From Methylorubrum extorquens (GTDB lineage: Bacteria > Pseudomonadota > Alphaproteobacteria > Rhizobiales > Beijerinckiaceae), in the NCBI RefSeq assembly GCF_024169925.1, contig NZ_JALJXF010000001.1, positions 4,532,001-4,596,000 of the forward strand: 64,000 nt of DNA, in the 5' to 3' direction. This document shows, one piece after another, positions 5,896 to 49,660 of this stretch. Each line of letters starts with the position of its first letter. The first letter of the stretch is position 1. The notes below the pieces were generated by a model. The model was not told the DNA's origin, ran no database searches, and worked only from the letters and a program-made list of their open reading frames with translations. The position numbers were made by a program, and so were the translations under genes.

Positions 5896-6800
5896 CGGTC
5901 TCCGGTCCTTTCGCGATCGCCGCGCGGGGTCTTTGCGGCGTCCTCAGCCTCGGCCGCGCGCTCTTCGGCCCGCCACCGCGTCGCGGCTTCAGCCAAACCC
6001 GCCCGCAGATCCTCCCAGGCCGCCGCTTCGACCGCAAGCGCCACCGCCGGAGGGCGCGGCAGAACGAGGGCGGCGGCGAGATCCCCCGCCCCGAGGCTCA
6101 GGCCCCGGTACTGCGCGAAATTGGCGAAGGTGACGCCGAGCCCCGGCGGCTCCGCCACGACGCTGCCGACGGCGAGGAGTTCGAGCGGCACGGTGAGACC
6201 GCAGCGCAGTGCCTTGGACAGTGCCTCCTTCAGGCACCACAGCCGGGTCAACCGCTCGGCCTCCGGCGCGTCGAGCCGGGCGGCGAGGTGGCGGCGCTCG
6301 ACCGCCGTGGTCTGGCGCGTCAGCAGCGCGACGTTGGCCGGCTGAATCCGCTCCAGATCGATCCCCATCGGGCAGGCCTCGGGAAACACCACCGCCACGG
6401 CGACCGGGCCGGCATGGGACAGGCTGATGCCGAGGTTTTCGACCCCGGCGCCGGACAGAACCGGCTGCTCCAGCACGCCGGGCCGGATCGCCAGATCCCG
6501 CGGGTCGAGGTCGGGCTTGAGCGCGGCGAGGGCGCATTTCGCCGCGTAGCGCCCGATCAAGAGACCGTGGCGGCGGCGGGCATGGAGCCGGTCGGTGAGC
6601 AGCGCGGCTTCGTCCGGGTGAAGGAAGCCGCCGCGATGAGCGTCGAGCCAATCGAGCGGCGCGCTCGCGAGCGCCAGAACGGCCTGCGTCACGCCGGTCC
6701 GAGGCGCATCGAGCGTGAGGCGCAGGCTCCGCACCAGCGGGACGGCGGCCTCCGCACCTGCCGCGCTTTCGGCGCTTTCCTCACACGTCATAACCGCCAT
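5892..6800 (-). CDS. 4'-phosphopantetheinyl transferase (Sfp type)
   Basis: This 302-aa enzyme would transfer the phosphopantetheine arm of CoA to a carrier-protein serine. Key motifs are MGIDLERI (Mg-binding Asp/Glu) and RLWCLKEALSKALRCGL, the W-x2-KE-x3-K signature of Sfp/EntD proteins. The size fits Sfp-type rather than the short AcpS type. The long N-terminal part contains GRYAAKCALA, the CoA-binding region. No NRPS or PKS gene lies in the window, so its target carrier protein is unknown. It is first in a two-gene operon with the NUDIX gene and divergent from the beta-lactamase gene. Confidence 0.88.
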   Translation of the reverse strand: MAVMTCEESAESAAGAEAAVPLVRSLRLTLDAPRTGVTQAVLALASAPLDWLDAHRGGFLHPDEAALLTDRLHARRRHGLLIGRYAAKCALAALKPDLDPRDLAIRPGVLEQPVLSGAGVENLGISLSHAGPVAVAVVFPEACPMGIDLERIQPANVALLTRQTTAVERRHLAARLDAPEAERLTRLWCLKEALSKALRCGLTVPLELLAVGSVVAEPPGLGVTFANFAQYRGLSLGAGDLAAALVLPRPPAVALAVEAAAWEDLRAGLAEAATRWRAEERAAEAEDAAKTPRGDRERTGDR

Positions 6801-6905
6801 TCGCCTCGCTCGCCTTCGCGTCGTCCTGGAACCGGACCCAGGACGATGCTCTAGGCTCTTGTTCTTGCATCATCTTTTTCCGAAAGCCGGCAACCACCTT
6901 TCGGG

Positions 6906-8108
6906 ATGATGCTCTCGCCAAGAAGGAAATGCGCCATCTCCGCAATGCGAAAGCGCGCGCTGGCCGCCCTCGTCCTGAGCTGCTTATCGCATCTCCCGAC
7001 ATCTGCCCTGGCCGACGATCCGTCCGCGCGGGTCGCCGCCGCGGTCGAGCAGGCCTATCGCCCGCTCCTGAAGGCGTACGACGTGCCCGGCCTCGCCGTC
7101 GCCGTCACCCGCGAGGGGCATTCCACCGTCTTCACCTTCGGGCTCGCCGACCGGGAGCGGCAGCGGCCGGTGACGCGCGACACGCTGTTCGAGATCGGCT
7201 CGGTCAGCAAGACCTTCACGGCGACGCTCGTTTCCTACGCGCAGGGGCTCGGCCGGCTCTCGCTCGACGATGCGCCGAGCCGGTTCCTGCCGTCGCTGCG
7301 GGGCAGCGCGCTCGACCGGATCAGCCTGCTCGACCTCGGCACCTACAGCGCGGGCGGCCTGCCGCTGCAATTTCCCGACAGCGTCACCGACGAGGCGGCG
7401 ATGATCGCCTACTTTCGCCGGTGGCAACCCTCCGCGCCGCCCGGAACGCAGAGGCTCTATTCCAATCCCAGTCTCGGCCTGTTCGGAGCCGCCGCCGCCG
7501 CTTCCATGGGTGGCGACTTCGCCGGCCTGGTGGAAACCCGGCTGTTTCCGGGGCTCGGCCTGACGCACAGCTTCATCCGCGTGCCCGCCGCCAAGAGCGA
7601 GCACTACGCCTGGGGTTACGGCCGGGACGGCACGCCGATCCGGGTCAATCCGGGCGTCCTCGACGGGGAGGCCTACGGCGTCAAATCCAGCGCCGCCGAC
7701 ATGATCCGCTTCGTCGAGGCCAACATCGATCCCGGCCGCCTCGACCCGCCGATGCGGCAGGCGGTTCAAGGCACCCATGTCGGCTATGTCCGGACCGATG
7801 CGATGGTGCAGGGGCTCGGCTGGGAGCAGTTGCCCTTTCCGATCCCGCTGGAGCGCCTTCAGGCCGGCAACGCCGATCCGGTGCGGTTCGAGGCGCAACC
7901 TGCCGCGCCGCTCGATCCGCCACAGGTGCCGACGGGGGCGACGCTGTTCAACAAGACCGGCTCGACCAACGGTTTTGGCGCCTACGTCGCCTTCGTACCG
8001 GCCAAACGCATCGGCCTCGTCATGCTAGCCAACCGCGCGTTTCCCATACGAGCGCGCATCGCAGCAGCCCACGCGGTACTGGAGGCGTTGGCGGCCGAGG
8101 CGCCCTGA
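6906..8108 (+). CDS. Class C (AmpC-type) beta-lactamase
   Basis: A 400-aa periplasmic serine hydrolase. All three class C active-site motifs are present in order: S99-VS-K102, Y185-S-N187 and K350-T-G352. The hydrophobic segment ALAALVLSCLSHLPTSALA before DDPS is a Sec signal peptide. I give ATG 6906, but ATG 6945 (MRKRALAALVL) would give a more usual signal peptide and may be the true start. The intact YSN and KTG motifs favour a real AmpC over a generic penicillin-binding-like esterase. No ampR-like regulator is adjacent; the divergent neighbour is the phosphopantetheinyl transferase gene. Confidence 0.88.
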   Translation: MMLSPRRKCAISAMRKRALAALVLSCLSHLPTSALADDPSARVAAAVEQAYRPLLKAYDVPGLAVAVTREGHSTVFTFGLADRERQRPVTRDTLFEIGSVSKTFTATLVSYAQGLGRLSLDDAPSRFLPSLRGSALDRISLLDLGTYSAGGLPLQFPDSVTDEAAMIAYFRRWQPSAPPGTQRLYSNPSLGLFGAAAAASMGGDFAGLVETRLFPGLGLTHSFIRVPAAKSEHYAWGYGRDGTPIRVNPGVLDGEAYGVKSSAADMIRFVEANIDPGRLDPPMRQAVQGTHVGYVRTDAMVQGLGWEQLPFPIPLERLQAGNADPVRFEAQPAAPLDPPQVPTGATLFNKTGSTNGFGAYVAFVPAKRIGLVMLANRAFPIRARIAAAHAVLEALAAEAP

Positions 8109-28746: not shown

Positions 28747-29757
<1,011 letters not shown>

Positions 29758-29768
29758 GCCCGCCGCGG

Positions 29769-30683
29769 ATGGCCTCCACCCGGCTTGTCGAGGCCGAGAG
29801 CCGCCGCCCCGGCGGCCCCGAGGCCGGCAGCGCCCTGGCGCTCGCCGAGGTGATGCCGCGGCTCGTGCTCGAATCGCGGCGCGTCTCCGGCACCCTGGCG
29901 CACGGCCTGCACGGGCGCCGCCGCGCCGGGCCGGGCGAGAGCTTCTGGCAGTTCCGCCCCTTCGTGCCCGGCGAGGCGGCGGCGCGCGTCGATTGGCGCC
30001 GCTCCGCCCGCGACGACCGGCTCTACGTGCGCGAGCGCGAGTGGGAGGCCGCCCACAACATCTGGATCTGGATCGACCGCTCCGCCTCCATGGGCTTCGC
30101 CTCGGATCTCGCCCAGACATCGAAGATCGAGCGGGCGCTGGTGCTGGGGTTGGCGCTGGCCGACACCTTCGTCGAGGGCGGCGAGCGCGTCGGCCTGCTC
30201 GGGCTCACCCGTTCCAGCGCTGCGCGCGGCATCGTCGAGCGCCTCGCCCAGGCGCTCGTCAACGACCGCTCCGGCCTGACCCAGGATCTGCCGCCGGCCG
30301 CCACGCCCGGCCGGTTCGACGAAGTGGTCCTGATCAGCGATTTCCTCACGCCGCTGGATCGGGTGCGCGGCGCCGTGCAGACGATCTCGGCGCGCGGCAC
30401 CCACGGCCACCTCGTGCTGGTGGCCGATCCGGTGGAGGAAACCTTCCCCTTCACGGGGCAAGCGGTGCTGCACGATCCCGAGGGCGGTCTCAGCCTCGAT
30501 ATCGGCGAGGCGTCGGCCTGGGGCGAGGCCTATCGCACCCGCATCGCGGCCCACCGCGACGGCCTGTCCGAGATCGCCCGGCAGCGGGGCTGGACGCTGA
30601 CGATCCACCGGACCGACCGGCCCGCGAGCGAAGCGGCCCTGCGGCTGCTGACCCTCGTCGCCGCCGCGCGCGGCCTCGGCTGA
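29769..30683 (+). CDS. DUF58 (VWA-like) protein
   Basis: A 304-aa soluble protein of the DUF58 family that partners MoxR. FRPFVPGEAAARVDWRRSARDDRLYVRE is the DUF58 signature, followed by the VWA-like metal site WIWIDRSASMGF (DxSxS). ATG 29769 lies 11 bases after the moxR stop; longer in-frame starts fall inside moxR. Confidence 0.92.
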   Translation: MASTRLVEAESRRPGGPEAGSALALAEVMPRLVLESRRVSGTLAHGLHGRRRAGPGESFWQFRPFVPGEAAARVDWRRSARDDRLYVREREWEAAHNIWIWIDRSASMGFASDLAQTSKIERALVLGLALADTFVEGGERVGLLGLTRSSAARGIVERLAQALVNDRSGLTQDLPPAATPGRFDEVVLISDFLTPLDRVRGAVQTISARGTHGHLVLVADPVEETFPFTGQAVLHDPEGGLSLDIGEASAWGEAYRTRIAAHRDGLSEIARQRGWTLTIHRTDRPASEAALRLLTLVAAARGLG

Positions 30684-30696
30684 AAGGCGAAGCGCA

Positions 30697-33534
30697 TTGT
30701 TCGGAGTTCCGCTCACCTTCGCCGCCCCCCTCGCGCTGGCCGCCCTCGTTGCGCTGCCGGCCCTGTGGATCCTGCTGCGGGTCACGCCGCCGCGCCCCCA
30801 GCGCATCCACTTCCCGCCGCTGGCGCTGATGGCGGACCTGCTGCCCAAGCGCGAGACGCCGGCCCGCACACCGCCCTGGCTCCTGATGCTGCGGATTCTG
30901 GCCGCCGCCTGCCTCATCCTCGCGGTGGCCGGGCCGGTGTGGAATCCCGGCGGTATCGGCGCCGCTGCGGGGCGAGAACCCCTGCTCCTCATCCTCGACA
31001 ACGGGGTCGTCGCCGCCCACGATTGGCGCGACCGCCTGCGCGCGGCGACCGACGAGATCGAGGCCGCCGCCCGTGACGGCCGCCCGGTGGCGCTGGTCGC
31101 CAGCGCCGAGCCCCCCGCGCCGTTCGAGGCGAAGGCCCCGGCCGCTGCCTTGGAGCGCTTGCGCGCGATCCAGCCGCGCCCGCATCTCGGTGACCGCGGG
31201 ACGCATCTGGCCTCGATCGGCACCTTCCTGGAGCGGGTGCCCCGCGCCTCGATCGTCTGGATCAGCGACGGCGTGCGCGGCGTCGGCGAGGCCGATTTCG
31301 CGGCATCCCTCGGCGAGATGGCGGGCCGCCACGGCAGCGCCGTGACCGTGCTGAAGGCCGAGCGATCCCCGGCGCTGGCGCTCGAAGGCTCCCCCGTGCA
31401 GCCCGGCGAAAAGCTCTCGGCCCAGGTCCTGCGTGCGGAAGGCAACGGCCGCGATGCCGGGCTGGTGCGGGCACTCGACCAGAAGGGCCTGCCGCTCGCC
31501 GAGAGCCGCTTCACCCTGGAGCCGGAGGCGCGCGAAACCCGCGTCAGCTTCGACCTGCCGGTGGAGCTGCGCAACGCCATCGCCCGCCTCGAGATCGAGG
31601 GCGAGCGCTCGGCCGGCGCCGTGGTGCTGATGGACGAGCGCGGCAAGCGCCGCCGGGTCGGCCTCGTCTTCGGCGGCACGCTCGATCAGGCCCAGCCGCT
31701 GCTCGCGCCGACCTACTACCTCGCCAAGGCGTTGAACCCCTTTGCCGATGTGCAGCAGCCCCGCGGCGGCCAGGGCACGGCGGAATCCATCGGCCAGATG
31801 CTCGACAATCAGGTCTCGGTGCTGGCGCTCGCCGATGTCGGCGCGCTGGACGAGCGCACGCTCGCGCGGGTCGAGCAGTTCGTGGACGAGGGCGGGCTGT
31901 TGCTGCGCTTTGCCGGCCCCCGGCTCGCAGCCGGCAACGACCCGCTCGTGCCGGTGCGTCTGCGCCGGGGCGGTCGCTCGCTCGGCGGCACCCTCTCCTG
32001 GGACCGGCCGCGCACGCTCGCAGCGTTCGCCCCCGAGAGCCCCTTCGCCGGGCTGAACCCGCCCGCCGATATCGGCGTGCGCCGCCAGATCCTCGCCGAG
32101 CCCGACGGCGACCTGCCGGGCAAGACCTGGGCGGCGCTTCAGGACGGCACGCCGATCGTCACGGCGAGCAAGCGGGGGCAGGGGCTCGTGGTACTGTTTC
32201 ACGTGACCGCCGACACGACGTGGTCGAACCTGCCGCTATCGGGCCTGTTCGTGGACATGCTGCGCCGGGTCGTCGGGCTCGCCGGCCCGTCCACCAAGCT
32301 CGGCGAGGGCGACGGGCGGGGGGCGAAGGCCGCGCTGCTGGCGCCGCGCCTGACCCTCGACGGTTTCGGTGCGCTGGGCTCGCCGCCGGCCGGCGCCACC
32401 GCGGTGCCGGCCGACTTCGCCGACCGCGCCGGCCCCGAACACCCGCCCGGCTTCTACGGCACGGCGGAGGGCGGCATCGCCGTCAACGCGCTGGCCCCCG
32501 GCGACCGGCTCCAACCCCTCGACCTCGCCGGCCTCAAGGGCGCCCGCACGGGGTCGCTTGCGGGCGCCGAGACGCTGGATCTGCGCGCGCTTCTGTTCAC
32601 TCTCGCGCTGGCCCTGCTGGCCCTCGACACCCTGGCGGGCCTCTGGCTCGGCGGCTTTCTTCGCGGTTTCGGTCGCGGTTCACACGGGAAGGCGGCGCCG
32701 GCCGCCTTGCTTCTGCCGGCGCTGGTCGGCCTTGCGCTGGCCTGCTCCCCGCTCCCGGTGCGGGCGCAGGAACCACCCGCCAACCGGCCGTCCGGCATCG
32801 AGTCGGCGCTGGCCACCCGCCTCGCCTTCATCGTCACGGGCGACGCCGCGACCGATACCGCGAGCCGGGCGGGCCTGTCGGGTCTGAGCCAGATGCTCGC
32901 CGCCCGCACCGCCCTGGAGCCCGGCGAGCCCGCGGGCCTGAATCCGGAAAAGGACGAACTCGCCTTCTACCCGCTGATCTACTGGCCCATCGTCGCCGGC
33001 CGTCCGCAGCCGAGCGAGGCGGCGATCCGCAAGATCGACGCCTTCATGCGCAACGGCGGCACGGTGATCTTCGACACCCGCGATGCCCAGACCGCCCGCC
33101 CCGGCGGCCCGCCGAGCCCTGAGGCGGCGTATCTGCGCAAGATGCTCGCCACCCTCGAAGTGCCGGAGTTGGAGCCGGTGCCGGCCGACCACGTGCTCAC
33201 CAAGGCGTTCTACCTCGTGGATTCCTTCCCCGGCCGGCTCAGTACCGGACAGACCTGGGTCGAGACGATTCCGCCCGCGGGCGAGGGCGGCGAGCGCCGT
33301 CCGGCCCGGGCCGGCGACGGCGTCACCCCGCTCATCATCACCGGCAACGACCTCGCCGCCGCCTGGGCGGTCGGCCGCAACGGCGAGCCGCTCTACCCCG
33401 TCACCGGCGGCGACCAGCGCCAGCGCGAGATGGCGTTCCGCGGTGGCATCAATATCGTGATCTACACCCTGACCGGGAACTACAAGGCCGATCAGGTCCA
33501 TGTGCCGGCGTTGCTGGAGCGGTTGGGACAGTGA
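30697..33534 (+). CDS. BatA-like membrane protein with C-terminal DUF4159 domain
   Basis: A 945-aa inner-membrane protein. Residues 1-25 and about 55-80 are membrane helices of the BatA N-terminal type (FAAPLALAALVALPALWILL). A large VWA-like/periplasmic part follows; helices near residues 630-690 lead to a second hydrophobic segment, and the last 200 residues contain the DUF4159 domain (FYPLIYWPIVAGRPQPSEAAIRKIDAFMRNGGTVIFDTRD). The start is TTG 30697, 13 bases after the DUF58 stop with AAAGGCG before it; no ATG fits the family N-terminus. DUF4159 resembles a class I glutamine-amidotransferase fold without proven activity. A palindromic repeat follows the gene. Confidence 0.9.
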   Translation: MFGVPLTFAAPLALAALVALPALWILLRVTPPRPQRIHFPPLALMADLLPKRETPARTPPWLLMLRILAAACLILAVAGPVWNPGGIGAAAGREPLLLILDNGVVAAHDWRDRLRAATDEIEAAARDGRPVALVASAEPPAPFEAKAPAAALERLRAIQPRPHLGDRGTHLASIGTFLERVPRASIVWISDGVRGVGEADFAASLGEMAGRHGSAVTVLKAERSPALALEGSPVQPGEKLSAQVLRAEGNGRDAGLVRALDQKGLPLAESRFTLEPEARETRVSFDLPVELRNAIARLEIEGERSAGAVVLMDERGKRRRVGLVFGGTLDQAQPLLAPTYYLAKALNPFADVQQPRGGQGTAESIGQMLDNQVSVLALADVGALDERTLARVEQFVDEGGLLLRFAGPRLAAGNDPLVPVRLRRGGRSLGGTLSWDRPRTLAAFAPESPFAGLNPPADIGVRRQILAEPDGDLPGKTWAALQDGTPIVTASKRGQGLVVLFHVTADTTWSNLPLSGLFVDMLRRVVGLAGPSTKLGEGDGRGAKAALLAPRLTLDGFGALGSPPAGATAVPADFADRAGPEHPPGFYGTAEGGIAVNALAPGDRLQPLDLAGLKGARTGSLAGAETLDLRALLFTLALALLALDTLAGLWLGGFLRGFGRGSHGKAAPAALLLPALVGLALACSPLPVRAQEPPANRPSGIESALATRLAFIVTGDAATDTASRAGLSGLSQMLAARTALEPGEPAGLNPEKDELAFYPLIYWPIVAGRPQPSEAAIRKIDAFMRNGGTVIFDTRDAQTARPGGPPSPEAAYLRKMLATLEVPELEPVPADHVLTKAFYLVDSFPGRLSTGQTWVETIPPAGEGGERRPARAGDGVTPLIITGNDLAAAWAVGRNGEPLYPVTGGDQRQREMAFRGGINIVIYTLTGNYKADQVHVPALLERLGQ

Positions 33535-33594
33535 TGGCCGCTCATTCTGCTTCGGCGACATATCAAACTAACCAGCCGATCCGCCCGTGCGTCC

Positions 33595-33618
33595 CCTCTC
33601 CCCGCACGCGGGGAGAGG
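33595..33618. repeat. REP-like palindrome
   Basis: Arms CCTCTCCCCGC (33595-33605) and GCGGGGAGAGG (33608-33618) are perfect, with a two-base centre. The same palindrome occurs twice in cobN (54436 and 54593). Here a single copy stands between two Bat-operon genes. Confidence 0.8.
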
Positions 33619-33652
33619 AGTTTTCCGCGATTGCTACAGGAGGCCCTAGCCC

Positions 33653-35743
33653 ATGCTGAGCCTCAGCTTCACCCCCCTCGTCCCCTGGCCGGTGCTCGCG
33701 GCCTTCGGCGTCTTCGCCGTGATCCTCGCCGTTGTCGCCGTCCTTGCCCGCGGGCGCACGGCGCTGTTGCGGGCGGTGGCGCTCGGCCTCGTCCTCGCCG
33801 CGCTCGCCAACCCCTCGCTCGTGCGCGAGGACCGCGACCCGGTGAAGGACGTGGCGGCCATCGTCGTCGATCGTTCCGGCTCGCAAAGCCTGGGCGACCG
33901 CCCCGCCATGACCGACGCGGTCAAGGCCGAGCTGGAACGCCGCTTCGGCGCGCTGGCCAACATCGAGCCCCGCTTCATCGAGGTCGGCGACGCGCAGGGC
34001 GGGGAGGGCGACGACGGCACCAAGCTGTTCACGGCGCTGACCCAGGCGCTCGCCGACGTGCCGCCGGAGCGGATCGCCGGCGTGGTGATGCTCACCGACG
34101 GCGTGGTACACGACATCCCCGCCTCGCTCGAAGCGCTCGGGCTGAAGGCGCCGCTGCACGTTCTCGTCACCGGACGCCCGGACGAGCGCGACCGTCAGAT
34201 CAAGATGCTGGAAGCGCCCCGCTTCGGCATCGTCGGCCGGGACGTGACCCTGCGCGGCGAGGTGATGGAGCGCGGCGGCACCGGCACGGCCATCGTCACC
34301 GTGCGCCGCGACGGCGAGGAGATCGACCGGCAGAGCATCGCCACCGGCGTGCCGTTCTCGCTCACCACGCATATCGAGCATGGCGGCCCGAACGTCGTCG
34401 AGATCGAGGTCGAGCCGCTGCCCGGCGAGCTGACCACGGTGAACAACCGCGCCGTGCTCCCGATCGAAGGCATTCGCGAAAAACTGCGGGTGCTGCTCGT
34501 CTCCGGTGAGCCGCACCAGGGCGAGCGCACCTGGCGCAACCTCCTGAAGTCGGACGCCTCCGTCGATCTCGTCCACTTCACGATTCTCCGGCCGCCGGAG
34601 AAGCAGGACGGCACCCCGATCTCCGAACTCTCGCTGATCGCCTTCCCGACCCGCGAGCTGTTCGTCCAGAAGATCAAGGATTTCGACCTCATCATCTTCG
34701 ACCGCTACGCCAACCAGAGCGTGCTGCCGTCCGCCTATTTCGACAACATCGCCCGCTATGTCCGCGAGGGTGGGGCGCTGCTCATCGCCGCCGGGCCGGA
34801 ATTCGCCGGTCCGGCGAGCCTTGCCCGCACCCGGCTCGCCTCGATCCTGCCGGGCGACCCCTCGATGAAGGTGGTCGAGCAGCCGTTCAAGGCGACGCTC
34901 ACCGAGACCGGCCACCGCCACCCCGTCACCCGGGCTCTGCCGGGCTCTGAATCGAACCCGCCGGCCTGGGGCGATTGGCTTCGTATCGTGTCGGCGCAGA
35001 CCCGTCCGGGCGTGCAGCCGATCCTGTCGGGCGCCAACGGACTGCCGCTCCTGGCCCTTTCCCGCGAAGACAAGGGCCGCGTCGCCCTGATGCTGTCCGA
35101 TCAGGCTTGGCTCTGGGCCCGCGGTTACCAGCAGGGCGGCCCCTATCTCGATCTGCTGCGGCGCCTCGCCCACTGGCTGATGAAGGAGCCCGCCCTCGAA
35201 GAGGAGGCCCTGCGCGCCCAGACCACGGGCCGGGGCCGCGAGGTCCGCGTCGAGCGCCAGACCATGGCCGAGGAGGCGGGCCCCGTCACGATCACCGGGC
35301 CGACCGGCAAGGAGCGCGAGTTGGGCCTGTCGAAGGCCGAGACCGGCCTGTTCACCGCGACCTTCGAGGCGGAGAGCCTCGGCCTCCACACCATCCGCTC
35401 GGGCAACCTCGTCGCCTTCGTCAGCGTCGGCCCGGCCAACCCGCGCGAACTCGCCGACGTGTTCAGCGACACCGAGCGTCTGAAGGGCGTCACGGACGGG
35501 TCCGGCGGCACGGTGCGCCGGGTGGCGGCGGCCGGCGGCGGCATCGAGGTGCCCCGCCTCCAGATCACCCGCGGCGGCCGGCTCGGCGGCGCCGACTGGA
35601 TCGGCTTCCGCCCGAGCGACAGCGCCACGGTGCGCGGCGTCGAGGTCTATCCCCTCGGCATCGGCCTCTGGGCCTTGGTGGCGCTCGCCGCCGCCGTGCT
35701 GGCGATGTGGCTGGTCGAGGGACGGCGCGGAAAGTTCATATAG
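33653..35743 (+). CDS. VWA / glutamine-amidotransferase-like membrane protein
   Basis: A 696-aa protein with N-terminal membrane helices (WPVLAAFGVFAVILAVVAVLA and ALLRAVALGLVLAALAN), a VWA-type metal site AAIVVDRSGSQSLGDRP, a GATase1-like domain in the middle (FDLIIFDRYANQSVLPSAYFDNIARYVREGGALLIAAGPEF), and a C-terminal membrane helix. It ends the MoxR-DUF58-DUF4159 operon; these sets are linked to cell-envelope integrity or stress in relatives. The AT-rich reverse-transcriptase island starts directly after its stop. Confidence 0.88.
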   Translation: MLSLSFTPLVPWPVLAAFGVFAVILAVVAVLARGRTALLRAVALGLVLAALANPSLVREDRDPVKDVAAIVVDRSGSQSLGDRPAMTDAVKAELERRFGALANIEPRFIEVGDAQGGEGDDGTKLFTALTQALADVPPERIAGVVMLTDGVVHDIPASLEALGLKAPLHVLVTGRPDERDRQIKMLEAPRFGIVGRDVTLRGEVMERGGTGTAIVTVRRDGEEIDRQSIATGVPFSLTTHIEHGGPNVVEIEVEPLPGELTTVNNRAVLPIEGIREKLRVLLVSGEPHQGERTWRNLLKSDASVDLVHFTILRPPEKQDGTPISELSLIAFPTRELFVQKIKDFDLIIFDRYANQSVLPSAYFDNIARYVREGGALLIAAGPEFAGPASLARTRLASILPGDPSMKVVEQPFKATLTETGHRHPVTRALPGSESNPPAWGDWLRIVSAQTRPGVQPILSGANGLPLLALSREDKGRVALMLSDQAWLWARGYQQGGPYLDLLRRLAHWLMKEPALEEEALRAQTTGRGREVRVERQTMAEEAGPVTITGPTGKERELGLSKAETGLFTATFEAESLGLHTIRSGNLVAFVSVGPANPRELADVFSDTERLKGVTDGSGGTVRRVAAAGGGIEVPRLQITRGGRLGGADWIGFRPSDSATVRGVEVYPLGIGLWALVALAAAVLAMWLVEGRRGKFI

Positions 35744-35783
35744 CTACGTTGTGTAGGTTGTGCGACCTTATCTGGGGTCTAAT

Positions 35784-37334
35784 CTAAAACAGATCATTGC
35801 CATGCGTCTTTAGGCACCAATCCGAGAATTCTTTGGATAGCGGAAATTGAAGGCGACTCTTTATTCCTCTAATCCAATGCGAGTATTCATCTCTTGGCAA
35901 GCATCGGGCTCCAAATATAAAGCTTGGCTGCGACCAAGAATTTAGTTCATTTACCTTAGTCTTCCTAGATCTAAAGAAATTTTGATCATTGTTTCTCCAT
36001 CTAAGTAGATGAATCTGACGCACATCAAGGGTTCCTGTTAAGGTGTCTAATTTTCTAATAGCAGATGCATCAAAATTCACCACCTTTTGAATGCCAAGCT
36101 CAAGAAACCAAGCTCTCGCGCAATCTAAAGGCCGCATCCTGGAAGAAAGTATAATTTCTACTAGTTCGTCTCCCATGTTTTCAAATCCGCTTATGCCAGC
36201 GTCGGCAAATTCTTTGATGAGAAGTGAAACATCTTTAGCAAAAGGGATTAATTTCGCAAGATTTTCTCTAATATACCATGCAACATCAGGGCTTTTCACC
36301 ATCCGCATCGCATGTAGGACGATCTTTATCGTGCCAATGTCCCAGTATGCATCAGATAAAAGCTCTTCTAGCTCTTTGCTAAGGTCTTTCATCATCAATG
36401 ATTTGAGGGCGTCTTCATCTTCGCCACCATGATCGTACGCAGCCCAAAATAATTTTTCTGTAGCAAAATCTTCCTTGGACGAATCGTCATCTGCGCCATG
36501 TTGGCTGACGGACTGGATAAATTCTTTCCACTCTAGTATTTTGGTCTTCTGGTTATTGAGGGAAAGTCCTTCGTTGGCTGATAAATGCTGTGCTAGGAAT
36601 GCAAGCGCAGCATACGGATCTTGATCTCTTTTTATAAAAATAATTATGTCATCTACGTAGCGGGTGAACTGATATCCCTCCGAAATCAGGGCCATATCAG
36701 TATCGTTTAAGGCAGCTTCTGCCAGAAGTCTCGAAGCGCTACTTCCGACTGGAAGTCCGAATGATTGATTGCTTCTCCAGTCGCTGATTATTTTCTCGAT
36801 CTTTTTGACCGTCTTCGTCTCTCCTGAAAGACTATCTAATATATTTTCTAATCTATGGCGGTATATTCGATGATAAAAATCCGATATATCGGTTCTAATT
36901 GCGTAAACGTAATTATCTTCGAAAGCATAATTACTAATATGATCAAGCCACTCTCTAAATCGCCGGTCAGGTATGAAAAAATCGGAACCTAGGCCGGGCG
37001 CTTTTCGATAAGCAAATGCTCGATTATTGGCAATCGAGTCGCGGCCTTGCTCGACTTTATCGTAAATACTTGCAACAAGGGCGGTATATATTATGGTATC
37101 TATTAAATATGGCTGATGGGCTACACGAAATCCGAATTTGGATTTTGGAATTAGAGACTCTACAAGGCTAATAGGATGGTAATTAGACAGATCGAGTGCC
37201 GAGAGGGCGTCGCATATGGCGATATTTTCATCTTTTAAAAAATTCATCTCGAATGGATAGGGAAAAAGATCTGTATCTCCCTTTAGCACAATGTGCTCGA
37301 TAGTGCATTTATACAAATCTCTATCCAATTTCAT
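35784..37334 (-). CDS. Reverse transcriptase of the defence-associated (UG/DRT-like) kind with helical C-terminal extension
   Basis: A 516-aa RNA-directed DNA polymerase. RT motifs in order: motif A region YAIRTDISDFYHRIYRH (D149, D152), motif B GLPVGSSASR at 193-202, the catalytic YVDD at 226-229 (RYVDDIIIF), and LSLNNQKTKI at 257-266. The segment KSKFGFRVAHQPYLIDTIIYTAL (residues 64-86) resembles the N-terminal part of 'unknown group' (UG) RTs. Residues about 285-516 are helical, HEAT/alpha-Rep-like, as in AbiA/AbiK and several DRT proteins. No retron hallmarks (NAxxH, VTG), no maturase, endonuclease or integrase domain. The gene stands alone, is AT-rich and uses codons unlike its neighbours, so it was acquired. 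An anti-phage role and the exact UG class are inference. Confidence 0.88.
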   Translation of the reverse strand: MKLDRDLYKCTIEHIVLKGDTDLFPYPFEMNFLKDENIAICDALSALDLSNYHPISLVESLIPKSKFGFRVAHQPYLIDTIIYTALVASIYDKVEQGRDSIANNRAFAYRKAPGLGSDFFIPDRRFREWLDHISNYAFEDNYVYAIRTDISDFYHRIYRHRLENILDSLSGETKTVKKIEKIISDWRSNQSFGLPVGSSASRLLAEAALNDTDMALISEGYQFTRYVDDIIIFIKRDQDPYAALAFLAQHLSANEGLSLNNQKTKILEWKEFIQSVSQHGADDDSSKEDFATEKLFWAAYDHGGEDEDALKSLMMKDLSKELEELLSDAYWDIGTIKIVLHAMRMVKSPDVAWYIRENLAKLIPFAKDVSLLIKEFADAGISGFENMGDELVEIILSSRMRPLDCARAWFLELGIQKVVNFDASAIRKLDTLTGTLDVRQIHLLRWRNNDQNFFRSRKTKVNELNSWSQPSFIFGARCLPRDEYSHWIRGIKSRLQFPLSKEFSDWCLKTHGNDLF

Positions 37335-37540
37335 TTTATAAATAAACCTTCATATGCTCTGGAGTGGGAGCTTTATCAAAATTTAGCTCGCAGGATCTAA
37401 AATTAATACTTACCTTCGATCATTATTTATGTTTCGATCCGAATCGCTCTAATCCGATAATGCTAACGTAACGCTGTTGCGGAAAAAAGCGTCGAAGAAG
37501 AAATTTCCGGGGACTTCGCTTGGCAACCGCGCATGCGATA
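37335..37540 (-). other. AT-rich leader upstream of the reverse transcriptase; possible ncRNA
   Basis: About 200 bases with no reading frame precede the RT gene on the same strand. A candidate promoter for the RT is TTGATA (37374-37379) and CATATG (37351-37356) with a 17-base spacer, leaving a short leader with AAGG 12 bases before the ATG. Further out, a minus-strand hairpin (AAGCG-AAG pairing with CTT-CGA-CGCTT, 37487-37521) runs into six T residues and may block read-through into the locus. Some DRT systems have a structured ncRNA next to the RT gene; no unambiguous long stem-loop was found here. Confidence 0.35.
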
Positions 37541-37561
37541 CGTCGGTCCGACATAGGGCCC

Positions 37562-37611
37562 TGTCCGAACGAGCTTGACCTGTGTAAGTCGGTTCGGACA
37601 TGACCGACTTA
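37562..37611 (+). promoter_or_regulatory. Two overlapping, mutually exclusive inverted repeats at the kinase start codon
   Basis: TGTCCGAAC (37562-37570) pairs perfectly with GTTCGGACA (37592-37600). TAAGTCGGT (37585-37593) pairs perfectly with ACCGACTTA (37603-37611). The arms overlap at 37592-37593, so only one hairpin can form fully. The ATG at 37600-37602 is partly inside the first stem and wholly in the nine-base loop of the second. There is no clear Shine-Dalgarno sequence, so structure may set translation of the kinase; as DNA the repeats could be operators. Confidence 0.55.
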
Positions 37612-40500
37612 CCTCCGTTCCTGGCCGGCGGCGGCGAGGCCGCCCGCATGATCGCCGAGCGCGACTGGTCGGATCATCCCCTCGGCCCCCCGCAGACCTG
37701 GCCGGAATCGCTACGCACGGCGCTCAGCCTCGTCGTGAATTCGCCCGAAAGCATGATCCTGGCCTGGGGGCCGGACCTGCATTTCTTTTTCAACGACACC
37801 TACTTCCCGCTGCTGGGACCTCGTCTGTCTTGGGCCATGGGCGAGCGCTTCGACCGGGTCTGGGCCGACGGCTGGGATCAGGCCAAGCCGATCATCGACG
37901 ACGCCTTCGCGGGGAAAAGCCGCCGCTTCGAGGATCTGCCCTGGACGCTGGCCACCGACCGGGGCGACGCGCAGACGTGGTGGAGCTTCTCCTACTCGCG
38001 GGTGCTCGACGGGGAGGGCCGCATCGCCGGCCTGTTCATCTTCACCAACGAGACGACGAAGCGCATCCGCACGGAGACGCTCCAGCGGGAGAGCGAGGCG
38101 GCCCTGCGCCGCAGCGAGGCCTTCCTGACAGCGATCCTGGAGGGGCTGCCGGTCGGCGTCATCATCGCCGACGCGGAAGGGCGGATCGTGCGCGACAACG
38201 CCGCCAACCGCGATATCTGGGGCATCCCGCCGGAAACCACGAGTTGGGAGGGCTACGGCGATTGGGTCGGCTTCTGGCCCGAGACGGGCGAACGCCTGCG
38301 CGCCGAGGAATGGGGCATGGCCCGCGCCCTGCTGAACGGCGAGACCGTGCGCGGCGAACTCGTGGAGATCGAACGTTTCGACGGCGGCGGGCGGCGGCTG
38401 TTCCTCAACAACGCCGCGCCGATCCGTGACGGGGCGGGCACCATCGTCGGCGGCGTGGTGGCCGAACTCGACGTGACCGAACGGATCGAGGTCGAGCGGC
38501 GGCTGCGGGAGAGCGAGGTGCTCGCCCGTATCAACGCCGAGCGGGTCCAGCTCGCGCTCTCGGCCGGCGCGATTGTCGGCACGTGGTTCTGGGATCTGCC
38601 CACGGACCGCTTCACCGTGGACGAGGCCTTCGCCCGCGCCTTCGGCCTCGATCCGGCGCTCGGCCGCGAGGGCTTGAGCCTCGCCCAGGTGGTCGAGACG
38701 GTGCATCCCGACGACAAGGCCGATCTGGCGCAGGCGATCAGCGAGGCCGTCGCCCGCGGCGGCGCCTACGCCCACCAATACCGGGTGCGGCGGGCGGACG
38801 GGTGCTATTACTGGATCGAGGCCAACGGTCGGGTCGATCACGCGCCCGACGGCACGCCGCTCAGCTTCCCCGGCGTGCTCATCGACGTGGAGGAGCGCCG
38901 CGCCGTCGCCGCCGAGCGCGACCGGGCCATCGTGCTTCTGCGCCGGCTCAACGAGACGCTGGAGGAGCAGGTCGCCGCGCGCACCGCCGAGCGCGACCAG
39001 ATCTGGCAGGCCTCCAGCGACCTTCTGGCCGTGGCCGATTTCGAGGGCCGCTTCGTCAGCCTCAACCCGGCCTGGAGCGCCACGCTGGGCTGGAGCGAGG
39101 CCGAGATGAAGGCCGTTCCCTTCCTCGATTTCATCCACCCCGACGACCGGGAGCGGACGCGTGAGGCCGCCGCCGCCCTCGCCCGCGGCGAGATGCAGCT
39201 GGGCTTCGAGAACCGCTACCGCGCCCGCGACGGCGGCTACCGCTGGTTCTCCTGGAACACCGTGCCGCGCCAGGGCCTCATCTACGCCTCGGTGCGCGAC
39301 GTCACCGCGATCAAGGCGCAGGCCCGCGCGCTCACCGAGGCCGAGGAGGCTCTGCGCCAGGCGCAGAAGATGGAGGCGGTGGGCCAGCTCACCGGCGGCC
39401 TCGCCCACGACTTCAACAATCTGCTCGCCGGCATCTCCGGCAGCCTGGAGCTGATGCAGACTCGCATAGCCCAAGGCCGGCTCAAGGATGTCGACCGCTA
39501 CATGGGCGCCGCCCAAGGCGCGGCCAAGCGCGCCGCCGCGCTGACGCACCGCCTGCTCGCCTTCTCCCGCCGTCAGACTCTCGACCCGCGGCCCACCGAC
39601 GTGAACCGGCTGGTGATGGGGATGGAGGATCTGATCCGGCGCACGGTCGGTCCCACCATCACCATCGAGGTGGTGGGGGCGGCCGGGCTCTGGCCCTCCC
39701 TCGTCGATCCCCCGCAGCTCGAGAACGCGCTGCTCAACCTCTGCATCAACGCCCGCGACGCGATGCCCGAGGGCGGGCGCATCACCATCGAGACCGCCAA
39801 CAAGTGGCTCGATGCCCACGCCGCGCACCAGCACGACGTTCCGCCCGGCCAGTACCTTTCGCTCTGTGTGACCGATACCGGCACCGGCATGACGCCGGAC
39901 GTGCGGGCCAAGGCGTTCGACCCTTTCTTCACGACCAAGCCCACCGGACAGGGCACGGGGCTCGGGCTGTCGATGATCTACGGCTTCGCCAAGCAGACCG
40001 GCGGGCAGGTACGGATCTATTCGGAGGTCGGCGAGGGCACGACGGTCTGCATCTACCTGCCGCGCTTCCATGGCGACGCGGAGGAGCCCGATTCGCTCGG
40101 TCCCCTGGTCGATGCGCCCCGGGCTCGGCGGGGCGAGACGGTGCTCGTGGTCGATGACGAGCCGACGGTGCGGATGCTGGTGACGGAGGTGCTGGAGGAT
40201 CTCGGCTACACCGCGATCGAGGCCGCCGACAGCGCCAGCGGCCTCAAGGTCCTGCAATCGGACGTGCGCATCGACCTGCTGATCTCGGATGTCGGACTGC
40301 CGGGCGGCATGAACGGTCGCCAGATGGCCGATGCGGGCCGCATCTCGCGCCCCGGCCTCAAGGTGCTGTTCATCACCGGCTACGCGGAGAACGCGGCGGT
40401 GGGCAACGGCCATCTGGAGCCCGGCATGGCGGTGCTGACCAAGCCGTTCGTGGTCGAGACCCTGGGCCTGCGCATCCGCGAGATCATCGCGCGGGGATAA
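37600..40500 (+). CDS. Hybrid PAS sensor histidine kinase with receiver domain
   Basis: A 966-aa soluble hybrid kinase without membrane helices. It has an N-terminal PAS-like module (DWSDHPLGPPQTWPESL), three further PAS domains at roughly 165-280, 310-430 and 465-575 with a coiled coil near 435-460, the HisKA box GGLAHDFNNLLAGISG with phospho-acceptor H603, an HATPase domain (CINARDAMPEGG, DTGTGM, GTGLGLSMIYGF), and a C-terminal receiver with VVDDEPTV and phospho-acceptor D897. It is a member of the FNNLL-type hybrid kinases common in Methylobacterium. The sensed signal is unknown. No cognate regulator gene is adjacent. Confidence 0.93.
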   Translation: MTDLPPFLAGGGEAARMIAERDWSDHPLGPPQTWPESLRTALSLVVNSPESMILAWGPDLHFFFNDTYFPLLGPRLSWAMGERFDRVWADGWDQAKPIIDDAFAGKSRRFEDLPWTLATDRGDAQTWWSFSYSRVLDGEGRIAGLFIFTNETTKRIRTETLQRESEAALRRSEAFLTAILEGLPVGVIIADAEGRIVRDNAANRDIWGIPPETTSWEGYGDWVGFWPETGERLRAEEWGMARALLNGETVRGELVEIERFDGGGRRLFLNNAAPIRDGAGTIVGGVVAELDVTERIEVERRLRESEVLARINAERVQLALSAGAIVGTWFWDLPTDRFTVDEAFARAFGLDPALGREGLSLAQVVETVHPDDKADLAQAISEAVARGGAYAHQYRVRRADGCYYWIEANGRVDHAPDGTPLSFPGVLIDVEERRAVAAERDRAIVLLRRLNETLEEQVAARTAERDQIWQASSDLLAVADFEGRFVSLNPAWSATLGWSEAEMKAVPFLDFIHPDDRERTREAAAALARGEMQLGFENRYRARDGGYRWFSWNTVPRQGLIYASVRDVTAIKAQARALTEAEEALRQAQKMEAVGQLTGGLAHDFNNLLAGISGSLELMQTRIAQGRLKDVDRYMGAAQGAAKRAAALTHRLLAFSRRQTLDPRPTDVNRLVMGMEDLIRRTVGPTITIEVVGAAGLWPSLVDPPQLENALLNLCINARDAMPEGGRITIETANKWLDAHAAHQHDVPPGQYLSLCVTDTGTGMTPDVRAKAFDPFFTTKPTGQGTGLGLSMIYGFAKQTGGQVRIYSEVGEGTTVCIYLPRFHGDAEEPDSLGPLVDAPRARRGETVLVVDDEPTVRMLVTEVLEDLGYTAIEAADSASGLKVLQSDVRIDLLISDVGLPGGMNGRQMADAGRISRPGLKVLFITGYAENAAVGNGHLEPGMAVLTKPFVVETLGLRIREIIARG

Positions 40501-40540
40501 GGCCGGGGTCGGACCCGGCCGCCGCGTCAGTCCCGCCCCG

Positions 40541-42622
40541 TCAGGCCCGGATCGAGCCGACGAAGTGCTGGACGGAGTTCTGGAGCTGGGCGGACTGCCC
40601 GTTCAGCGCGATGGCGTCCTGCAGCACCATGTCCGCTGCCCGCCCCGTGGCGCTGGAGGCGCCGATGACGGATTCGATCTCGCCGGTGGCCAAGCGCATG
40701 CCGTGCGAGGCGGCCGAGATGTTGTGGGCGATCTCCTGGGTCGCCGTCGATTGCTCGTCGATGGCGTGGGCGATCGCGTCCGCCATGCCGTTGGCGCGCC
40801 GGATCGCCTGCGTGATGTTGCCCATGGCCTGCACCGTCTGCTCCGTGGCCACGCGGACCGAACCGATATGCGCCGCGATCTCGTCGGTCGCCCGGGCCGA
40901 CTGACCGGCCAGCGCCTTCACCTCGGCGGCGACGACGGCGAAGCCCTTGCCGGCCGCGCCGGCGCGTGCCGCCTCGATCGTGGCGTTGAGCGCCAGCAGG
41001 TTCGTCTGCTCCGCCACGCCGCGGATGAGGCCGAGCACCTCGCTGATCCGCGCGGCGGCGCCGCCGAGGTCGGCGACCTTGGCTTCCGTCTCGGAGGCTT
41101 GCTGAGCCGCTTCCGATGCGGCCGCGGACGACCCCCGCGCCTGCCCGCGGATCTGATCGATCGAAGCGGACAGCTCCTCCGCGGCCGCGGCCACGGCCTC
41201 GATGTTCTGCGAGGCCGAGCGGGAGAGCCGGGCGGCTTCCGCCGAACGCAGGTCGGCCTCCCGGGCGGTGCCGGCCAGGGTCGTGGCCTGGGCCTCGAAC
41301 GAACCCGCCGCCGTCGCGACTTGGCCCACGATGCCGCCGACCGAGTTTCCGAACTGGTCCGCCGTCCGCTCCAGGCTCTGGCGCCGCTCCACCTCGGCGG
41401 ATTGCCGCAGGCCCTCGCGCTCGCCCCGCAGCCGCTCCGCCTCGGCGCCGTGCGCCTTCAGGACGTCCACCGCGCGGGCGATCTCGCCGATCTCGTCGCG
41501 GCGCTCCGTGCCGGGCACCACGACGTCGCGCGCGCCTTCCACGAGCTGCGTGATGGTCCGCGCCAGCGAGGCCAGCGGCTGCACGACGCGGCGCGTGAAG
41601 AAGACCACGATGCCGAAGGTGCAGAGGATGACGAAGAGCAGGGTCGCACCCGCTACGGCGAGGCGCGGCAGCGCCGAGGCGATCGTCTCGTCGGCCGTGG
41701 CGAGCGCCGATGTCAGGGCGGCATCCCTGATGGTCAGGATCGACTGGAGTGCGTTGACGGTATAGGGGCGCCACTCCGGGAGGCCCATCGGCGGCTCGGT
41801 CCCATCCCGGGCGGCCGCGAACATCGCGGCCATCACCTTACCCGGATCTGCGATGAAGCTGCGCTCTGCCAGCCTGAGCGCCTCGACGATCGGGCCTTCC
41901 GTTTCGACCTGAAGCACGCTGCGCTGCAGCCGCTGCCAAGCCTGATCGATCCGGCCGTCCATCTCGTGAACCTGGACGACCAGGGCCGGCGGGAAGCGCT
42001 GCTTGCTCCCCGCGTACTGACTGAACCAGGCGGAGCGGCTGCCGCCGACGTCGCGCAACTCCATCGCGAGGCTGATCACCGGCACCGCGCGGGCGATGTC
42101 CGGGTTCTTGCGCATCACATCGATCTCGACCGTCCCGAGCGTCTTCGCATTCTGCGTGACGACTGCGATGATGGCTTTTTGGAAGCTCTTCGCCGCCTGC
42201 TCGTCGCGCTGCTTGAGCGGTTTGGCGATCTCACTGTCGGCCGCCGCGCGCGCGTCCTCGAGCTGGCGGATCGCCGGCTGCAGTGCGCGCTCGATCACGG
42301 TCCGCTTGTCGGACGGCATGGTCGCGACGGCACCCATGACCCGCCCGATGACGGCCTCGGTCGCCTTGCGGTTCGCTTCGGCCGAGGGCCGGATCGGCGC
42401 CTGGTCGGCGGTATCGAGGAGCAGGAGCTGGTTGTAGGAGCCGCGCTCGAGCGCGAGGCGCTCGTTGAAGCGGGCCATCTCGCCCAGAACCCCGACGAGA
42501 TGACGTGCCTCGTCCGCCTGCGACCAGCGCTGCCATTCCTGCCAGGCGATGAAGGAACTCGAACCCGCCGTCACGAGGCTGAGCGTGGCGATGCAAGAGA
42601 CGAAGAGACTCCGGACGCGCAT
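40541..42622 (-). CDS. Methyl-accepting chemotaxis protein
   Basis: A 693-aa chemoreceptor. A membrane helix at residues 5-27 is followed by a long all-helical periplasmic sensor (with [19 protein letters not shown], resembling nitrate/nitrite-sensing-type four-helix domains), a second helix near 300-320, a HAMP domain ([18 protein letters not shown]), and the signalling hairpin containing [40 protein letters not shown]. Start ATG 42620-42622 has a G-rich site just upstream. Ligand unknown. Confidence 0.94.
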
Positions 42623-42689
42623 CGGCCCCCCAGCTTTTTTTGGAATTGTCGCCACGTGGCGTTGGAACAACTAAGCAATGACATTTGTG

Positions 42690-42730
42690 AATGATCGGTT
42701 GACCGGGGACCTCTCCCGGTTTCGATCATT
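42690..42730. repeat. Two-step hairpin between hydrolase and chemoreceptor genes
   Basis: Outer arms AATGATCG (42690-42697) and CGATCATT (42723-42730) and inner arms ACCGGG (42702-42707) and CCCGGT (42715-42720) pair perfectly. There is no T-run, so it is a structural or operator element rather than a clear terminator. The rest of 42623-42888 holds no gene that I can support. Confidence 0.5.
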
Positions 42731-42888
42731 GTTGTCCTTCTCGCAGCAATCTTTGGAATACACCGCGCGTTTTGCTCGTGCAGCGGCGGCCCCGGAATTC
42801 CCGGCTCTGCTCGCGCCCGGTAGGCCGAGAACGCGGCGACGGGCATCGCTGACGGGCATCGCTTCTTCGAAACCTGGGCGCGTTGCGC

Positions 42889-43773
42889 TCAAGCCTCCAG
42901 CCGCGCGAAGAATCCCGCGATCGCTTCCGCGGCTGCCTCAGGCCGTTCCCGGTGCGGGAAATGTCCTGCGCCCTCGAACGGGGCGAGGTCGAGATCGGAG
43001 AAGGTCTCGCCGAGCCGGTCGGTCCAGGCGTAGGGGAAGAGCGGGTCCTGCGTGCCCCATCGGATACAGGTCGGCACATCGATCGGCGGCAGGGCCGGGG
43101 TCTCGCCCCGCAGCATGGCGAGCCGCCCCGCCTGCTGGCTCAGATACCAGTTGAAGCCGCCCTGAAGGTTGCCGGGCGCCAGGAAGTTGTCGGTGAAGGC
43201 GTCGAGCACCGCGTCGAAGGCAGCTGGATTCCCGCCGGCCCAGTGGCGCAGAAAATGGCCGATATAGGCGCGGCAGCTCTCGCGGCTGGCGCCGACCACA
43301 TCCGCCGCGAACGGCTTGAGATGGAAGGACTGGTACCAGATCTCGGCCAGCATCTCCGGTCGGGCCAGCCGCGGGCCGATGCCGGGATAGGGGCAATCGA
43401 AGAAGAACAGCCCGGTGAGCCGGTCCGGATGCGACCGCCCGAGGGCCTGCCCGACATAGGCGCCGACATCGTGCCCGACGACTCCCGCACGTGCGAGCCC
43501 CAGAGCATCGAGAAGGCCGACGATGTCGGCGGCGTGGACCTCCGGTCCGGCCTTGTCCGAGGGGCCGGGATCGGGCTTCTCGCTGGCACCGAAGCCGCGC
43601 AGGTCCGGTGCGATCAGGCTGAAGCGGTCGGCGAGCCGGGCCATCACCGGCTCCCAGGTCAGCCAGAATTCCGGCCAGCCGTGCAGCAGCAGCAGGGGGC
43701 TACCGGTTCCCGCCCGGGCGATGTGCAACTGTACGCCGTTCGCCGTCACCGTGTCGTGCCGGATTTCCACCAT
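42889..43773 (-). CDS. Alpha/beta hydrolase, epoxide hydrolase / haloacid-dehalogenase-like
   Basis: A 294-aa hydrolase. LLLLHGWPEFWLTW is the HGxP oxyanion motif, VVGHDVGAYVGQAL the nucleophile elbow with Asp (not Ser), and GAGHFPHRERP carries the His. An Asp nucleophile with HGWPE points to the epoxide hydrolase/haloalkane or fluoroacetate dehalogenase group. A lid with paired Tyr residues (FNWYLSQQ) is compatible with epoxide hydrolases. Which reaction it performs cannot be decided by eye. ATG 43771-43773 gives the normal N-terminus. Confidence 0.87.
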   Translation of the reverse strand: MVEIRHDTVTANGVQLHIARAGTGSPLLLLHGWPEFWLTWEPVMARLADRFSLIAPDLRGFGASEKPDPGPSDKAGPEVHAADIVGLLDALGLARAGVVGHDVGAYVGQALGRSHPDRLTGLFFFDCPYPGIGPRLARPEMLAEIWYQSFHLKPFAADVVGASRESCRAYIGHFLRHWAGGNPAAFDAVLDAFTDNFLAPGNLQGGFNWYLSQQAGRLAMLRGETPALPPIDVPTCIRWGTQDPLFPYAWTDRLGETFSDLDLAPFEGAGHFPHRERPEAAAEAIAGFFARLEA

Positions 43774-49417: not shown

Positions 49418-49615
49418 GTTACAAGCGGCCCGTGACGGTGCCCCGGCAACGGGGTGAAAAGGGAATGCGGTGAGAGGTTTCTCCAAGAACCTCGATTCCG
49501 CGGCTGCCCCCGCAACTGTAAGCGGCGAGTTCCTGCCACGAGCCACCGGGTGATCCGGGAAGGCGGCAGGCACGACACCAGCCGCGAGCCAGGAGACCTG
49601 CCGTCCCGCGAAGTT
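49418..49615 (+). promoter_or_regulatory. Cobalamin riboswitch
   Basis: A class I B12 riboswitch of about 200 bases. Features in order: GGTGCCCCGGCAACGGGG stem, GAAAAGGGAATGCGGTGAG core, CCCCCGCAACTGTAAGCGG, GAGCCACCGGGTGATCCGGGAAGG, and the B12 box AGCCAGGAGACCTGCC at 49587-49602. It lies directly before cbtB, so adenosylcobalamin should repress cobalt uptake and the whole downstream cobalamin operon. Confidence 0.95.
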
Positions 49616-49660
49616 TTGTTCTCGAACGCCGCCGGTGGGGCGGCCGGAGCCCGTGACCCG

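Follow-up and report, generated by a model that had tools for sequence, protein, structure and literature searches.

Which kind of reverse transcriptase (RT) is encoded by the solitary AT-rich gene in the Methylorubrum extorquens DNA analysed here (a stretch of 64,000 nucleotides, called the window throughout), does it work with a partner, and how might it act? The original prediction, made from the letters alone, had taken it for a stand-alone antiviral enzyme of the UG (unknown group)/DRT type, possibly of an undescribed subclass. We conclude with high confidence that it is a Drt8-family RT without a partner. The RT family is known; what is unusual is its branch, which lacks the PD-(D/E)XK partner of canonical DRT8 systems. 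The gene is an intact open reading frame (ORF) of 516 amino acids (aa) with an ATG start on the minus strand, whereas the plus strand of the same interval is full of stops. This ORF did not arise by chance, since it has 291 homologues at E ≤ 1e-3 among 7992 scored candidates, the nearest being 68% identical over its full length; named near homologues, among the matches listed (120 of 291), come from Ruegeria, Methylobacterium, Loktanella and Mesorhizobium. As predicted, the catalytic motifs YVDD and GLPVGSSASR are intact, with D228 and D229 invariant across an alignment of representative Drt8 RTs, and the gene is AT-rich (GC content 0.407, compared with 0.694 for the window and 0.71-0.73 in the 5 kb on each side).

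Among 88 PADLOC models, the protein matched Drt8 from end to end (461 bits, E = 1.7e-138; residues 3-510 against model positions 2-492 of 493), and the second-best model, RT_UG21, reached 128 bits. It is therefore an RT of the UG/DRT type, but one that belongs to the known Drt8 family and not to an undescribed subclass. Drt8, presumably the same as UG7, was also the best PADLOC model for 10/10 RTs from several branches of a first tree (315-551 bits). RVT_1 (E = 1.9e-14) was the sole Pfam family over its cut-off, with no nuclease domain. NCBIfam models for Drt2-5, AbiA, group II and retron RTs all scored far under their cut-offs (group II maturase TIGR04416, 62.7 bits versus 300; retron RT models NF038233, 44.9 versus 235, and NF042941, 17.2 versus 600), so by model scores the protein does not group with group II or retron RTs. 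In agreement, the window contained no Rfam intron match, and a search for the template and variable repeats of a diversity-generating retroelement (DGR) found no direct repeat of at least 50 bases in 30000-43000 and none above 15 in 35650-37650. With no integrase or transposase gene in the inserted segment (see below), the predicted lack of retron, group II intron, DGR and transposon features held.

Drt8 RTs are rare, being found in 7 of 385 genomes of the class, including this one (E ≤ 1e-30). Nine plasmids encode a relative (best, 38% identity), and no phage record does at E ≤ 1e-5. Scanning genome contigs with the single protein gave no relative; an alignment-based scan gave 117 stretches with a relative, from which 79 loci were kept. 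Alignment A1 was built from 34 of the 120 homologues listed (291 matches in all).

DRT8 is described in an excerpt of one article as carrying a PD-(D/E)XK domain (PMC12596737). Many pairs within one Drt8 clade share conserved sequence in the 500 bases that follow the RT. The reason is a further ORF, 196-266 codons long, whose start lies at the RT stop or slightly ahead of it in 28/28 loci of that clade (L057, L064, L070, L074, L076, L059, L081, L082, L055, L061, L063, L069, L052, L053, L075, L056, L077, L047, L051, L054, L060, L066, L116, L117, L068, L080, L062 and L073). PADLOC identified this ORF as RTasPDDEXK in 7/7 cases tested, and a D...ExK signature was conserved in 22 aligned partner proteins. 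A profile built from these 22 proteins (A4) matched 31/31 sources of the partnered clade, three of them viral contigs close to listed loci, and 0/33 from other branches. It also matched one of the 32 sources first listed with the branch of the window RT; this source, L138, falls within the partnered clade in the tree, beside L081. In a tree of 82 Drt8 RTs, the 29 rows with a partner form one clade (29/29) and 53 rows, including the window RT, have none, a single change on a branch with support of 100. This tree was made by a quick method with a long-branch warning and has no known root, so the change reads equally as gain or loss. Five long-branch rows (L045, L067, L078, L086 and L087) were left out of it and of the 175-row set described below; L086 and L087 match the Drt8 model.

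The window RT falls in a supported set of 27 tree rows, all partnerless and alphaproteobacterial by titles and kinship codes. No PD-(D/E)XK partner was found in the window, in the genome or in the branch loci within the available flanks. The partner model matched nothing in the whole genome at E ≤ 1; 5 of 14 control genomes gave a match at this threshold. Among the partnerless rows counted (53 in the tree), the downstream sequence was at least 457 bases, so that a partner lying farther away might have escaped notice in a few of them. One Drt8 RT ORF, in L020, ends after 182 aa and is apparently a broken copy. Since both branch and genome are without the PD-(D/E)XK partner, the window gene is not a canonical DRT8 system. 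Another type of partner has been reported: an excerpt of a different article (PMC10952713) tabulates the PNP effector Cap17 in connection with DRT8. In the open-licence literature searched, we found no mention of a partnerless DRT8.

AlphaFold2 gave a confident model of the 516-aa RT (predicted local distance difference test, pLDDT, 89.5; predicted template modelling score, pTM, 0.89), in which residues 284-516 are all-helical with no strands. The pLDDT fell below 50 only at residues 279-289 and 302-304, the linker from the RT part to the helical part. Modelled alone, the C-terminal part was again all-helical (pLDDT 87.9) and matched generic solenoids of the HEAT, ARM (armadillo) and alphaREP types. 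The foreseen helical extension of about 230 residues is therefore borne out, and the resemblance to these solenoids makes 'HEAT-like' a correct label. Full-length structural matches of the predicted fold were to the Class 1 UG/Abi enzymes DRT6, DRT4, UG15 and AbiK. From end to end, the model shows the layout of that class, in which a helical, HEAT-like C-terminal domain is joined to the RT. Matches to group II and DGR RTs were confined to the RT part (residues 1 to ~290).

At the end of the low-confidence linker lies Tyr300. In a 175-row alignment (99 proteins of 480-600 aa, the window RT and 75 locus RTs; shorter or longer proteins, duplicates, L020 and partial or duplicate loci were left out), its column was Tyr in 175/175 rows, while the other columns from 268 to 316 reached at most 80%. 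Spacing from T264 to Tyr300 was 34-36 or 39-42 residues in 173/175 rows, and Tyr300 was the sole Tyr between T264 and L322 in 76/175. In the 82-row alignment the column held Tyr in 76 rows and the other six have a same-context Tyr displaced by a gap, giving a counterpart in 82/82; a 78-row alignment gave 92%, a shortfall due to the aligner. The counterpart is present in partnered RTs (in a DPYS context) and partnerless RTs alike. In the 82-row set, three solenoid residues, W487, D482 and W506, show a similar degree of conservation.

According to excerpts of two articles, the priming tyrosines 298 and 303 of AbiA lie in the loop between the RT and helical domains, with the double Phe mutant being inactive (PMC11077055), and those of AbiK and Abi-P2 lie in an N-terminal loop (PMC9508834). 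By our placement, the counterpart of this N-terminal tyrosine is Tyr52, a position that is Tyr in 61% of the 175 rows. Because Tyr300 is conserved in the linker, where AbiA primes, and Tyr52 much less so, Tyr300 is a clear candidate for the start of DNA synthesis, likely by AbiA-like priming.

We then considered the genomic setting of the gene. Two same-genus genomes carry the flanking genes with 21 and 16 bases between the matches, versus 1.82 kb in the window, where the insert is bounded by 35731 and 37556 or 37549. In a further genome (G391; L108, 4180-6791), the same gap holds 2.8 kb of other cargo, making this a variable site; from the translations, the cargo looks like an AraC-type regulator, a small membrane protein and an alpha/beta hydrolase. 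The RT was absent at 19/19 same-genus loci, and at 16 of them the few kb covered showed no right-hand gene. Other ORFs of at least 80 aa in the insert were limited to a 113-aa ORF antisense to the RT and one running in from the host side, so the insert has no integrase or transposase gene. No convincing terminal repeats or target duplication were seen at its ends. Relatives elsewhere lie 3′ of a tRNA-Asn and of an integrase-like ORF (L005; Phage_integrase below cut-off), 177 bases from a tRNA-Ser (L006) and, in Methylocystis rosea (L040), near a RecE-like exonuclease and a CI-like repressor. Two other L040 neighbours match nothing, and the tested L040 neighbours score identically to those of viral contig L111.

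The neighbours of 22 related loci matched defence models (type I restriction-modification, PDC and mads), and 15 arbitrary control loci also gave some matches to defence models. Using a simple greedy ORF caller, 127 ORFs (up to three on each side of the 22 loci) were compared with 127 of the 131 ORFs listed for the controls, giving 82 versus 9 defence model names at E ≤ 1e-20. The 25 names listed of these 82 consisted largely of multiple models for a single type I specificity subunit and for one restriction subunit. Because distinct proteins cannot be counted from model names, we claim no enrichment, and the expected linkage with defence islands was not shown. Instead, a defence role is suggested by family membership and by one provirus-borne relative. 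Indeed, excerpts of two 2026 articles state phage protection for DRT8 at the family level and describe its mechanism as unresolved (PMC13213688, PMC13314766).

On balance, we lean towards the window gene being a one-gene Drt8 variant of a partnerless branch that would act against phages by Tyr300-primed, untemplated DNA synthesis, in the manner of the Class 1 enzymes AbiK, AbiA and DRT4. Our confidence in defence by such synthesis is moderate. The RT would probably assemble into a homo-oligomer, in which the hydroxyl of Tyr300, on a mobile linker, could reach the YVDD active site and accept the first nucleotide. Untemplated single-stranded DNA would then be extended through the cleft between the RT and the solenoid. 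Phage infection may trigger the synthesis or stabilise the DNA, and the product may block phage replication or stop the cell. Where DRT8 has its partner, the nuclease would cooperate with the DNA product; for the partnerless window RT, that product would need to serve as the effector alone. More tentatively, and with somewhat less than even confidence, partnerless Drt8 may be a distinct one-gene defence within a family that as a whole primes untemplated DNA from the linker tyrosine, the nuclease being an added processing or effector step and protein-bound DNA the effector here. A nuclease-free branch with a named candidate priming residue allows two point mutants to probe directly the role of the DRT8 RT alone, and lets natural DRT8 variants that have or lack the nuclease be compared.

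Compared with canonical DRT8 (a Drt8 RT plus PD-(D/E)XK, RTasPDDEXK in PADLOC), the window RT shares the end-to-end Drt8 match, the catalytic motifs and the linker tyrosine, but it has no partner gene, sits on a separate alphaproteobacterial branch and is 27-38% identical to the partnered RTs over the aligned part. It resembles the single-gene systems DRT4 (UG15) and DRT6 in having one gene, the full-length fold of RT plus solenoid and no non-coding RNA (ncRNA) found, although identity in the structural alignment is ~14% and the hidden Markov model (HMM) families are others. AbiA, AbiK and Abi-P2 also combine an RT with an alpha-solenoid, and the linker tyrosines from which AbiA primes are at the site of Tyr300. 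However, all three are far from the window RT in sequence, AbiA has a HEPN domain that the window RT lacks, and AbiK and Abi-P2 prime from the N-terminal loop.

A different, Class 2-like working, in which a short RNA from the leader or elsewhere would be copied repeatedly, would suit the 215-bp non-coding leader within the insert, and several of the nearest HMMs are UG groups of unchecked class, with Drt3a scoring slightly above Drt4. Yet across 23 branch loci including the window (blastn, E ≤ 1e-4), 234 of 253 pairs had a conserved RT gene, two matched in the 500 bases upstream (a chromosomal site common to two Bradyrhizobium and a 32-base match) and none in the 500 bases downstream. For the 28 branch pairs with RTs at least 50% identical, 13 of them at 72-89%, there was one upstream match (the Bradyrhizobium pair) and no downstream match. 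Thirty retron loci treated in the same way gave upstream matches in 8/9 pairs at ≥50% RT identity, several of which extend over all 600 bases and could reflect genes or sites in common, and in 1/290 pairs below 50%, so this control is powerful for close pairs only. Outside the window branch, some close Drt8 pairs do share upstream similarity (7/40 at ≥75% in the whole Drt8 set). The leader (37335-37550) folded no better than shuffled sequences (z = -0.08) and had no Rfam match at E ≤ 1, and comparing the window with four close loci, by eye and with MAFFT, gave no upstream alignment. No conserved cis ncRNA thus emerged from flank comparison, folding or Rfam, although one conserved in structure alone was not sought. 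In L004, moreover, 6 nt separate the end of the preceding ORF from the script-chosen RT start, and DRT9 and DRT2 align structurally over the RT part only. We rate templating by an ncRNA as unlikely.

We also judge it unlikely that the role of the missing PD-(D/E)XK partner is filled in trans by a nuclease from another locus. The constant position of the partner gene directly behind the RT throughout the partnered clade fits a two-component system, but the genome-wide search, which covers the PD-(D/E)XK partner model and not unrelated nucleases, came back empty, and 31/32 sources first listed with the branch have no partner, the exception being the reassigned L138. Group II-like RTs have described roles in DNA repair and end-joining. 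The good alignment of the RT core with G2L4 and group II RTs, the position of the gene among apparent housekeeping genes and the undemonstrated defence linkage would be compatible with such a non-defence role, which is nevertheless improbable: the gene behaves as an accessory gene, missing at the same-genus loci and sporadic in the class, and lies in inserted DNA of foreign composition, and a relative is provirus-borne. Lowest of all we rate a decaying, functionless orphan left after loss of the partner. The missing partner is what such decay would leave, but the window copy is intact and the partnerless RTs form large branches that keep the catalytic residues and the linker Tyr.

Table 1. Positions of the RT gene, its parts and the inserted segment in the window
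Feature	Position	Strand	Basis
Drt8-family RT gene, 516 aa	35784..37334	-	ORF; PADLOC Drt8; Pfam RVT_1
RT fingers/palm part, residues 1-277	36504..37334	-	Model and structural matches
Catalytic YVDD, residues 226-229	36648..36659	-	ORF translation, conservation
Motif B GLPVGSSASR, residues 193-202	36729..36758	-	ORF translation, conservation
Tyr300 codon, candidate protein-priming residue in the flexible RT-solenoid linker	36435..36437	-	Conservation, linker pLDDT
C-terminal alpha-solenoid, residues 284-516	35787..36485	-	All-helical models; HEAT/ARM/alphaREP-type matches
Inserted AT-rich segment of ~1.82 kb: RT gene with 53 bp 3′ and ~215 bp 5′	35731..37549		Nearly empty sites in same-genus genomes
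RT gene leader (5′), in which no conserved RNA or unusually stable fold was seen	37335..37549	-	Folding, Rfam, flank comparison

Several further observations were made around these loci. Read from translations without a family search, the left neighbours of the insert (28747-35743, plus strand) look like a MoxR-DUF58-BatA/VWA operon and the right neighbour (37600-40500, plus strand) like a PAS hybrid histidine kinase. At L015, a partnerless Drt8 is immediately preceded by an ORF with a type I restriction R-subunit domain (6729-7928). The retron St85 RT model matched, below its cut-off, in four same-genus genomes (L192, L188, L195 and L189, in G283, G577, G599 and G621), the L195 match having an internal stop. 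Elsewhere in the window, a cobalamin riboswitch was found at 49419-49619 on the plus strand (120 bits).
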